A DNA stretch of 64,000 bases, from positions 434,001 to 498,000 of the forward strand of contig JAURZE010000022.1 in assembly GCA_030653545.1 (NCBI GenBank). The letters are read 5' to 3'. Numbering within the stretch: the stretch's first letter is position 1; each line of letters opens with the position of its first letter. A model generated the notes under the pieces. It did no database searches and was not told where the DNA came from. It saw nothing but the letters and a program-made list of their open reading frames with translations. Source of the DNA: Nitrospira sp. GTDB taxonomy: Bacteria > Nitrospirota > Nitrospiria > Nitrospirales > Nitrospiraceae. Positions 2,777 through 44,940 of the stretch are shown here, one piece after another. The position numbers and the translations under genes are program-made.

Positions 2777-3262
2777 ATGAACGACTCCGTACACCCACAC
2801 CATCCCGACCTCATCCCGCTCTCGGTGAGCCGGGTCGTCGAAGACGCCAATACGGATACCAGGATTCTCGTCTTGACCAGGACCGACGATCAGGACACCT
2901 TTATGATCTGGGTCGGCGCCCCCGAAGGCGACTCGATTCGTCGCGCCCTGGATTCGGCCACACCGCCCCGACCGATGAGCCACGATTTGGTCAAGAGTTT
3001 CGGCGAGCACTTCGGCATCACGACCAAGCGAGTCGTCCTGACCGACGTGAAAAGCAGCACCTATTACGCCACCGTATTTTTGGAGAACAAAGGGGTGGAG
3101 CGGTCGATCGATGCCCGGCCAAGTGATGCCATCGCCCTGGCCCTTCGAACGCACGCACCGATCTATACCACCCAGGACGTCTGGAAACGGCGCAGCGGGC
3201 AACACCTAGATGCCTGGCTCGCGAAGCTCGATACGAAAGATATCGACACACAAGAAGTCTAG
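2777..3262 (+). CDS. Second BFN (DUF151) domain protein, tandem paralogue
   Basis: This 161-aa protein repeats the landmarks of the preceding gene (DTFMIWVGAPEGDS, PRPMSHDLVKSF, DARPSDAIALALR) with an N-terminal His/Pro extension and clear divergence elsewhere, so the duplication is old. The ATG at 2777 is favoured over an in-frame TTG two codons earlier. It is co-transcribed with the first BFN gene and lies 40 bp ahead of rplM. Confidence 0.85.
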   Translation: MNDSVHPHHPDLIPLSVSRVVEDANTDTRILVLTRTDDQDTFMIWVGAPEGDSIRRALDSATPPRPMSHDLVKSFGEHFGITTKRVVLTDVKSSTYYATVFLENKGVERSIDARPSDAIALALRTHAPIYTTQDVWKRRSGQHLDAWLAKLDTKDIDTQEV

Positions 3263-3302
3263 GATGTTTGGTTTGACTAATTGCGAGGAGTAGAAGATCA
3301 CC

Positions 3303-43083: not shown

Positions 43084-44292
43084 TTACTCCACAACGCTGA
43101 ATTCATAGCGGGCGCTTGTCAGCGCGGCCAACAGTTCCGACGCGTGATCCCGGCCCCGGGTTTCCATGGTGATATCGATTGCGGCTTGGTTCAGGCTGAC
43201 CCCGTAGTGCGCACGGTTGTAGGATGTCTCCACGATGTTGGCGCGGGCTTTGGAGATAACCGCCGTGAGGCCTTCCAGCGCGCCGGGATAGTCCGGAAGC
43301 AGGACGCGGAGGCGCAACCGTCTGCCGTCCCGCACCATGCCTTGCTCGATGATTCTCGCCAGCAGATTCACATCAAGGTTACCGCCGGAGACCAGCACCG
43401 CAATGTTTTTCCCGTGATGACCAGTTTTACCTTCCAAGACCGCGGCCAGCGCCACGGCACCGGCCCCTTCCGCCACCGTCTTCTCCCCTTCCAGCAGCAT
43501 CAGGATCGCCTCCGCGATTTCGTCTTCGTCGACCGTCACGATCCGATCGACGTACCGGCTCACGAGCGGCAGCGTGCGCTGGCCTGCCCGGCGAACAGCG
43601 ATGCCGTCGGCCAACGTCGATTTCGCCGGGAGATCGACCGGTTCCTGCTGCTGCAGCGCCGCCTGCATCGACGGCAGCCGGGCGGTTTGCACGCCGACGA
43701 TCTCGACCCGCGGATTGAGCGCCTTGACCGCGCAGCCGATCCCCCCGATCAGCCCGCCTCCTCCGACCGGCACGACGATCACATCCAGCGCGGGGTTCTG
43801 CTTCAAGAGTTCCAGCCCGATGGTCCCCTGTCCGGCGATGACCGCGTCGTCGTCGAAGGGGTGAATAAATACTGCCTTCCGCTCCACGCTCCGTTCGATG
43901 GCCGCCGCGCAGGCCTCGTCATAATTGTCGCCATGCAGCACGACATCCGCCCCATAGGCGCGCGTGGCGGAGAACTTGATCAAGGGCGTCAACCGAGGCA
44001 TCCAGATTTGAGCCGGAATGCCCCGCTGGGTCGCGTGATAGGCCACCCCCTGCCCATGGTTTCCTGCCGAAGCTGCGATCACTCCCTGCCGCCGCTCCTC
44101 CTCCGTCAGGGTCAAGATACGATTCAGCGCGCCGCGCTCCTTGAACGCGCCGGTCATCTGCAGATTTTCCAGCTTCAGGAAGACGGAATTCCCCGTCAGC
44201 CGGGACAGCATTTTCGAATGCATCAACAGCGATTCATAGATGGATGCACCGATGCGGGCAGCGGCTGCTTCGATCGACTCAAGATTGACCAT
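43084..44292 (-). CDS. ilvA: Threonine ammonia-lyase with C-terminal ACT domain
   Basis: The 402-aa PLP enzyme has the PLP lysine in GAFKERGALNRI (Lys51), the GGGGLIGGIGCAVK glycine loop for phosphate, and a C-terminal ACT domain (residues 325-402, LRVLLPDYPGALEGLTAVISKARANIVETSYNR). It makes 2-oxobutyrate for isoleucine synthesis. The ATG at 44292 has AAGGAGAACGG upstream. A terminator and a Thr/Ile-rich leader peptide lie just upstream, so transcription attenuation is likely. Catabolic threonine deaminase is the alternative assignment (single ACT domain, shorter length). Confidence 0.9.
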   Translation of the reverse strand: MVNLESIEAAAARIGASIYESLLMHSKMLSRLTGNSVFLKLENLQMTGAFKERGALNRILTLTEEERRQGVIAASAGNHGQGVAYHATQRGIPAQIWMPRLTPLIKFSATRAYGADVVLHGDNYDEACAAAIERSVERKAVFIHPFDDDAVIAGQGTIGLELLKQNPALDVIVVPVGGGGLIGGIGCAVKALNPRVEIVGVQTARLPSMQAALQQQEPVDLPAKSTLADGIAVRRAGQRTLPLVSRYVDRIVTVDEDEIAEAILMLLEGEKTVAEGAGAVALAAVLEGKTGHHGKNIAVLVSGGNLDVNLLARIIEQGMVRDGRRLRLRVLLPDYPGALEGLTAVISKARANIVETSYNRAHYGVSLNQAAIDITMETRGRDHASELLAALTSARYEFSVVE

Positions 44293-44330: not shown

Positions 44331-44369
44331 GCAAAAGAAAACCCCTGGTGGAACCAAATCCGCCAGGGG
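44331..44369 (-). terminator. Attenuator terminator in the ilvA leader
   Basis: On the minus strand CCCCTGGCGG, 8-nt loop, CCACCAGGGG then TTTTCTTTTGC. It lies between the leader peptide and the ilvA start, 38 nt before the latter, and matches an intrinsic terminator (10-bp stem with one wobble or mismatch at the apex). Confidence 0.8.
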
Positions 44370-44404
44370 CCGCTGCTCGCGTGCATTTCCAGTCGCAGGC
44401 AGGC

Positions 44405-44473
44405 TCAGGCGGAGCGGGCGATCATCATCGCCGCCGCCATGCTAATTCCGATGCTCTGCCGAATGGTTGTCAT
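44405..44473 (-). CDS. Putative 22-residue leader peptide of ilvA
   Basis: The frame runs ATG to TGA and encodes MTTIRQSIGIS followed by 11 more residues; two Thr and four Ile make up more than a quarter of it, with the Thr-Thr-Ile and Ile-Gly-Ile clusters in its first half. The stop is 35 nt before the terminator stem. Residue content fits sensing of charged tRNA-Ile and tRNA-Thr. The Shine-Dalgarno (GCGAGG) is weakly placed, at 13 nt. Confidence 0.6.
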   Translation of the reverse strand: MTTIRQSIGISMAAAMMIARSA

Positions 44474-44512
44474 CGTGTCACGATACCTCGCGGGTAAATC
44501 AATGCGTTGTGA

Positions 44513-44541
44513 TGTATATCATTTGCCGACAGACGCATCAA
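44513..44541 (-). promoter_or_regulatory. Promoter of the ilvA leader
   Basis: TTGATG (44541-44536), 17 bp, TATACA (44518-44513) on the minus strand. The predicted transcript begins about 30 nt before the leader peptide ATG. Confidence 0.6.
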
Positions 44542-44585: not shown

Positions 44586-44753
44586 GAAGCGCACGTCGCG
44601 CTCCTCTCTCAAAACGTGCCGGTGTTCGACTATCTCGCCGACCTCCACCCTCTTCCGGACACGGGATTTGAGGTGATTGCCCTGCCGATGAAGATCGCCG
44701 GTGGGACAAGCGGCCCGCTCCGCATCATCGCCGTGCTGCCCCCAACACCCTAA
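44586..44753 (+). pseudogene. 3' remnant of a cyclase-family gene (paralogue of 57029-57850)
   Basis: Reading from 44586, EAHVALLSQNVPVFDYLADLH and then LPDTGFEVIALPMKIAGG..SGPLRIIAVLPPTP match the C-terminal 55 residues of the intact cyclase at 57 kb at about 80% of positions, ending in TAA at 44751. No upstream part of the gene is present, so it is a remnant of a duplicated locus. Confidence 0.8.
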
Positions 44754-44940
44754 GCCGCCGCGCGCACCCTGCCAGGGTCCGTTCGATTCCCCGCGGCTGC
44801 ACCGTCCTTCTTCTTAAACATCGCTGGTCGCTCCCCCCTCACCCATCCCCCTCCTCTTTTTACATTTTATTATGCAAGTGGTCATTCATCGGGTACCTTA
44901 CGACTATCTCGTTCAGGCGCTCTCACAAGGGAGGAGTGGT

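Follow-up and report, generated by a model that had tools for sequence, protein, structure and literature searches.

The ilvA gene of the window (the whole stretch of 64,000 nucleotides of Nitrospira DNA that was analysed) is very probably controlled by a ribosome-mediated transcription attenuator which senses charged tRNA-Ile; judged from its sequence and from that of its relatives, we put the probability of this reading at about 0.88. The attenuator represents an undescribed family which would employ a known mechanism, i.e. classical ribosome-mediated attenuation, and the literature searched yielded no paper on attenuation in Nitrospira or in acidobacterial branched-chain genes. The component parts, their conservation, the mutually exclusive pairings, the compensatory changes in the terminator and an isoleucine enrichment matched to the downstream gene have all been observed. 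A transcription attenuator in front of ilvA had been proposed in the initial annotation, to be abandoned if the Ile codons or the terminator were missing from relatives; both proved to be kept, and the proposal was thus borne out.

The minus strand in front of ilvA carries all parts of the element, in the order promoter, leader ORF, terminator with the T tract TTTTCTTTT and Shine-Dalgarno sequence, followed by ilvA itself. The sigma-70-type promoter read from the sequence (TTGATG-17-TATACA, 44513..44541; -35 at 44541-44536, 17 bp, -10 at 44518-44513) lies exactly where it had been annotated, and each of the 34 relatives carries a counterpart (TTGAT/TTGCT-N15-19-TA[TC]A) at the corresponding position. 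The leader ORF (44405..44473) encodes MTTIRQSIGISMAAAMMIARSA in 22 codons, with Ile at codons 4, 8, 10 and 18; no clear Shine-Dalgarno sequence was seen for it. Segment 1 (44417..44438), which is contained within this ORF, is composed of the outer arm GGCGG (44438-44434, leader codons 12-14) and an inner hairpin, GGCGAT/ATCGCC. It may pair with segment 2 (TCCGCC-TGA-GCC, 44402..44413), which extends across the leader stop codon and has segment 3 as its other possible partner. Segment 3 (GGCCCCTGGCGGA, 44359..44371) is common to the antiterminator (2:3) and the terminator (3:4), the 3' arm of the latter being segment 4 (CCACCAGGGG, 44342..44351). The T tract follows at 44333..44341, and all relatives are T-rich at this site.

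The terminator hairpin together with its T tract (44371-44333) has a folding energy of -22.4 kcal/mol (z -3.46), which was equalled by none of 200 shuffled sequences. The hairpin is strong and lies where it had been annotated, although its stem is not a perfect 10-mer: it comprises 9 pairs and one C.A mismatch (core CCCCTGGcGG/CCaCCAGGGG in the window). A simple consensus scan of the window listed neither the ilvA promoter nor this terminator, as a consequence of the thresholds of the scan. Downstream, the Shine-Dalgarno sequence AAGGAG (44306-44301) precedes ilvA itself (43084..44292), coding for a threonine ammonia-lyase of 402 aa (TIGR01127, 485 bits against a cut-off of 379) with a C-terminal ACT-like domain (ACT_4, 24.9 bits, slightly below the cut-off of 27). 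On the plus strand of the window, at about 44600-44755, there is a frame, NVPVFDYLADLHPLPDTGFEVIALPMKIAGGTSGPLRIIAVLPPTP, which by eye looks like what is left of the C-terminus of a cyclase-type gene; a Pfam search with this frame gave no match.

IlvA orthologues with 79-94% identity were found in 22 of 79 genomes of the same genus (including that of the window) and in 12 genomes belonging to other genera in this family. The full unit (promoter, in-frame leader ORF, antiterminator and terminator) is present upstream of all 34 orthologous genes. A covariance model built from 31 of these 34 Nitrospiraceae leaders (R1) retrieved, across 172 genomes of the family, 34 copies scoring 105-142 bits, and no other match exceeded 37 bits. 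Most of the remaining weak matches were the palindromic terminator read on the opposite strand, and were rejected. Mean pairwise identity is distributed very unevenly along the region: 0.35 in the 5'UTR between promoter and leader, 0.67 in codons 1-9, 0.91, 0.81, 0.99 and 0.87 in segments 1, 2, 3 and 4, respectively (34 relatives), and 0.50 between the terminator and ilvA. This patchy conservation agrees with what would be predicted for a switch. Since the parts recur upstream of all 34 genes while the 5'UTR is unconserved, the attenuator is not a chance arrangement.

Two features of variable parts of the region are worth recording. One relative (L016) carries an insertion of about 150 nt with REP-like palindromic repeats (such as CCCCGTAGCGAGCTACGGGG) between the terminator and ilvA. 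In addition, some genomes (L010 and L022-L024 versus others) differ in having, in place of the terminator loop GGATTCGGTTCC, the reverse complement GGAACCGAATCC, as if the tip of the hairpin had been inverted.

The leader behaves as a coding sequence, judging by its pattern of variation. It is 20-23 codons long and contains 3-5 Ile codons in each of the 34 genomes; insertions and deletions (L008, L010, L011, L034 and the L022 group) all involve multiples of three, the start codon is kept throughout (GTG instead of ATG once), a stop codon (TGA or TAA) is always retained, and no broken leader was found. Isoleucine accounts for 17% of the residues of the Nitrospiraceae ilvA leaders. Codon 10 (ATT in the window, 44444..44446) is the likeliest main control codon: it specifies Ile in 30 of 34 leaders and Met (ATG) in the other four (L011, L033, L038 and L039). 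Codon 18 is Ile in 33 of 34. If the assumed ribosome footprint is correct, an Ile codon falls within the productive stall window in 33 of 34 leaders, the exception being L033.

The proposed mechanism is as follows. With enough isoleucine, the ribosome would reach the leader stop codon and cover segment 2, and the terminator 3:4 would halt transcription before ilvA. If the leader were not translated, hairpin 1:2 would capture segment 2, again leading to termination. When isoleucine is short, the ribosome would stall at one of the Ile codons, mainly codon 10, and cover the 5' arm of 1:2; in the acidobacterial homologues described below, it might also stall at an Ile run in place of codons 16-18. 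The stalled ribosome would release segment 2 for pairing with segment 3, so that the terminator would be blocked and ilvA transcribed. The element shares with attenuators of the ilvL/thrL type a leader ORF with Ile codons (34/34, translation predicted), an intrinsic terminator and an antiterminator which excludes it. From the sequence comparison we infer translation of the leader, an effect of stalling on read-through and the direction of the regulation.

Segment 3 is nearly invariant and pairs both ways, with segment 2 or with segment 4, and the Nitrospira structures are about 97.5% paired (98-100% of the cells in helix 1:2). The annotated antiterminator, TCCGCC:GGCGGA, is supported by the 38 sequences compared: none of them has fewer than 7 of the 9 pairs of 2:3, and all except one keep 8 or more. 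No compensatory change was found within Nitrospira alone, because the element varies too little there, and more distant relatives were thus needed. Most changes in segment 4 within Nitrospira turn a G-C into a G-U pair, which is the pattern to be expected of a segment 3 that has to remain complementary to segment 2 as well. When acidobacterial sequences were included (in an alignment from which one bulged base was removed in four rows to keep the register), the terminator 3:4 displayed compensatory changes at 3 pairs (9 cells), namely C-G to A-U, U-A to C-G or G-C, and C-G to U-A. Its covariation was 0.243, compared with 0.120 in shuffled alignments (0 of 500). In the same alignment the antiterminator 2:3 shows a single double (compensatory) change, and helix 1:2 none; the inner hairpin of segment 1 is lost in the three most distant acidobacterial members, in which the form of 1:2 changes.

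Folding calculations, in which the ribosome edge was assumed to lie 12 nt downstream of the first base of the A-site codon, are consistent with this scheme. With this assumed footprint, the predicted probability of 2:3 in the nascent RNA rises on average from 0.35 without a ribosome to 0.93 with a ribosome stalled at an Ile codon, and from 0.16 to 0.95 in the window. Once the ribosome is placed at the stop codon, the RNA left free is computed to fold into the terminator. In several relatives (e.g. L007, L009, L010 and L019) the predicted probability of 2:3 is high even without a ribosome, which is a weak point either of the folding model or of the postulated basal state.

The next closest IlvA proteins after those of Nitrospiraceae are acidobacterial, and some of their genes are preceded by related leaders. 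R1, although built from Nitrospira leaders only, gave matches of 21.6-30.9 bits directly upstream of ilvA in Bryobacterales or Acidobacteria (L080/L132, L069/L131 and L073/L134), and matches of 65-94 bits ahead of a small gene with an ACT domain, which is followed by ilvA (L137, L138, L139 and L141). These leaders read AIIIASSA, AIIIVGSA or AIIMIASSA as opposed to the AMMIASSA typical of Nitrospira; according to the model, the three Ile codons sit where a stalled ribosome would be best placed. By eye, a leader is absent from ilvA of Terriglobia and Acidobacteriaceae (L059-L068 and others). A stand-alone ACT-domain gene of 75-134 aa stands behind the attenuator at seven loci (L137, L138, L139, L141, L184, L188 and L193). 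It is closest to the family of the acetolactate synthase small subunit (below the family cut-off in the two members tested), is followed by ilvA at the L137-L141 and L184 loci, and is absent from the Nitrospira unit.

A second model (R2), which combined the Nitrospira and acidobacterial ilvA leaders, was run on 257 genomes of the same acidobacterial order, and revealed similarly built leaders upstream of the genes for acetolactate synthase (ilvB) and citramalate synthase (cimA); one protein of each kind was confirmed (TIGR00118 and TIGR00977). R2 also gave matches of about 25-33 bits at genes unrelated to branched-chain amino acids (L210, L213-L216); these have the appearance of ordinary 3'-end terminators and were not retained. 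After addition of the ilvB and cimA leaders (R3), matches were obtained in 136 of 219 genomes of one acidobacterial order (E up to 1e-6); most of the genomes are MAGs, the E-values come from short calibrations and a limited number of candidates was scored per genome. The census of ilvB, cimA and ACT genes is a sample of these matches: of 60, 54 lie directly before ilvB, 3 before cimA and 2 before ACT genes, and 1 runs off a contig end. In an even sample of 396 genomes from the whole acidobacterial phylum, few matches fell outside the one order. The ilvB and cimA leaders of Acidobacteriota (loci L192-L211 and L257-L325), which are rich in Ile/Val and Ile/Leu, constitute a large undescribed family of attenuators. 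Leader composition follows the downstream gene: Ile 17% before ilvA, Ile 22% and Leu 18% before cimA, and Ile 19% and Val 23% before ilvB.

In Nitrospiraceae, R3 produced only few weak matches, below 39 bits, at other genes. Neither R1 nor R3 detected, in the 172 genomes of the family, a full-length high-scoring copy besides the ilvA units, and the covariance models found no second attenuator in Nitrospira, e.g. before cimA or ilvB. The cimA frame of Nitrospira lies close behind another gene, and no leader was seen there.

In a tree of 106 IlvA proteins, computed with a quick method, the Nitrospiraceae clade falls inside Acidobacteriota, beside the attenuated acidobacterial genes (support of 100 for the joint clade), and the ilvA of other Nitrospirota falls far away. 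Since the Nitrospira gene is nested among acidobacterial ones, the gene and its attenuator probably crossed phyla together: ilvA with its leader would have moved from an acidobacterium to Nitrospira, the ACT gene being lost in between. The direction of this transfer we infer from the nesting in the tree. That ilvB leaders were picked up by a model built on ilvA leaders speaks for common descent of the ilvA, cimA and ilvB leaders rather than for convergence on one design. On balance, we lean towards a single family of Ile-sensing attenuators, which may have arisen in Acidobacteriota, been copied among ilvB, cimA and ilvH/ilvA with its codons retuned to the products of each gene, and crossed with ilvA to Nitrospira as one working unit.

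Which residues the switch senses deserves separate consideration. According to the initial annotation, the 22-residue leader, with two Thr and four Ile, responds to threonine, the substrate, as well as to isoleucine. The peptide is present and its Ile codons are conserved, and the window leader does have Thr at codons 2 and 3. However, threonine is found 0-2 times per leader (compared with 3-5 Ile), mostly in the unconserved N-terminus, and is absent from several (L009, L011, L012, L013, L015, L025 and L029); it is therefore not a conserved sensed residue. According to the computed ribosome edges, a ribosome stalled at codons 2-3 would moreover not reach the 5' arm of 1:2, and the runs seen in the closest acidobacterial homologues consist of Ile rather than Thr. 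The isoleucine part of the claim thus stands, and we regard additional sensing of threonine as very unlikely. Methionine makes up 13.6% of the residues of the leaders, and codons 12, 16 and 17 are mostly ATG and lie inside the productive stall window. As acidobacterial relatives have ATT ATT ATC in the place of codons 16-18, the ancestral Ile run might have become Met-Met-Ile, turning the Nitrospira switch into a combined Met/Ile sensor. This is improbable: codons 16-17 vary among Met, Ile, Ser and Val while codon 18 remains Ile in 33 of 34 leaders, a response of ilvA to Met has no physiological rationale, and one-base changes within a group of close genomes explain the pattern equally well.

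An isoleucine-sensing switch must also be weighed against explanations which dispense with the leader peptide. A strong terminator occurs in every genome, and the regulation is deduced from sequence data; one could thus envisage a constitutive terminator behind a meaningless short ORF, which damps transcription or yields a small RNA. We give this little credence, since it leaves unexplained the conserved in-frame leader, the Ile enrichment that tracks the downstream gene in a second phylum, and the retained complementarity of segment 3 to segment 2. A ligand-binding riboswitch or T-box at the ilvA leader may be brought to mind by a T-box (RF00230, 94.7 bits) in the genome of the window (L235; G000:C24, minus strand, 3067-3300), located before a 2-isopropylmalate/citramalate-synthase-like (leuA-like) gene. 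This finding also demonstrates that the search can detect T-boxes, and neither RF00230 nor the Rfam leader families (Thr, Leu, Trp and His leaders, and others) matched at ilvA. Rfam searches of the window element and 18 related loci, with gathering and permissive thresholds, gave no match at the gathering score, and the best sub-threshold matches were unrelated. Moreover, an aptamer would need more than the short conserved core, which the leader and the pairings already account for; a riboswitch or T-box at this place is thus extremely improbable. With a T-box before the leuA-like gene and a ribosome-mediated attenuator before ilvA, a single organism appears to employ both devices for its branched-chain genes.

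Citramalate synthase is encoded in 78 of 79 genomes of the genus as compared with 22 of 79 for ilvA, so that a minority of the genus possesses two routes to 2-oxobutyrate. The route via ilvA is therefore accessory, which suits tight control by isoleucine. This suggests that Nitrospira ilvA provides a reserve route, to be opened under isoleucine shortage, next to the citramalate synthase which nearly all members of the genus possess.

The results point to an undescribed attenuator family which spans branched-chain genes in many Acidobacteriota and ilvA of Nitrospira. One scaffold combined with Ile, Ile+Leu or Ile+Val leaders constitutes a natural series suited to testing how control codons are retuned, and the ilvA attenuator provides a case, given the probable transfer, of cis-regulation surviving passage between phyla.

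Acidobacteria were included in the broad screen for terminator-based attenuators by Naville and Gautheret (2010; PMC2965389), in which almost all attenuators predicted for this group were without associated functions, leader-peptide systems then being known in Proteobacteria and Actinobacteria only; its main text names no ilv or Nitrospira attenuator. In Staphylococcus aureus, synthesis of branched-chain amino acids is likewise subject to leader-peptide attenuation, which acts beside CodY (PMC5794164), but the peptide of this Firmicute is leucine-rich. The ilvBNC operon of Corynebacterium glutamicum, which also serves branched-chain amino acids, is preceded by an attenuator that forms alternative mRNA hairpins (PMC11857589). 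It differs in belonging to an actinobacterium and in controlling ilvBNC, the sequence relation having been compared through Rfam only. Most documented cases of leader-peptide attenuation come from Proteobacteria, Actinobacteria and some Firmicutes, and the classical ribosome-mediated examples are ilvL (ilvGMEDA) and thrL (thrABC) of Escherichia coli. The Nitrospira element resembles these in having a promoter, a short leader ORF enriched in amino acids of the pathway, a stop codon in segment 2, the alternative pairings 2:3 and 3:4 next to a putative 1:2 helix, and an intrinsic terminator before the first gene. It differs from them in its phylum, in controlling ilvA directly, in matching no Rfam leader family and in its sparse Ile codons (3-5, mostly non-adjacent), which stand in place of the long Ile/Val/Leu or Thr/Ile runs of ilvL and thrL.
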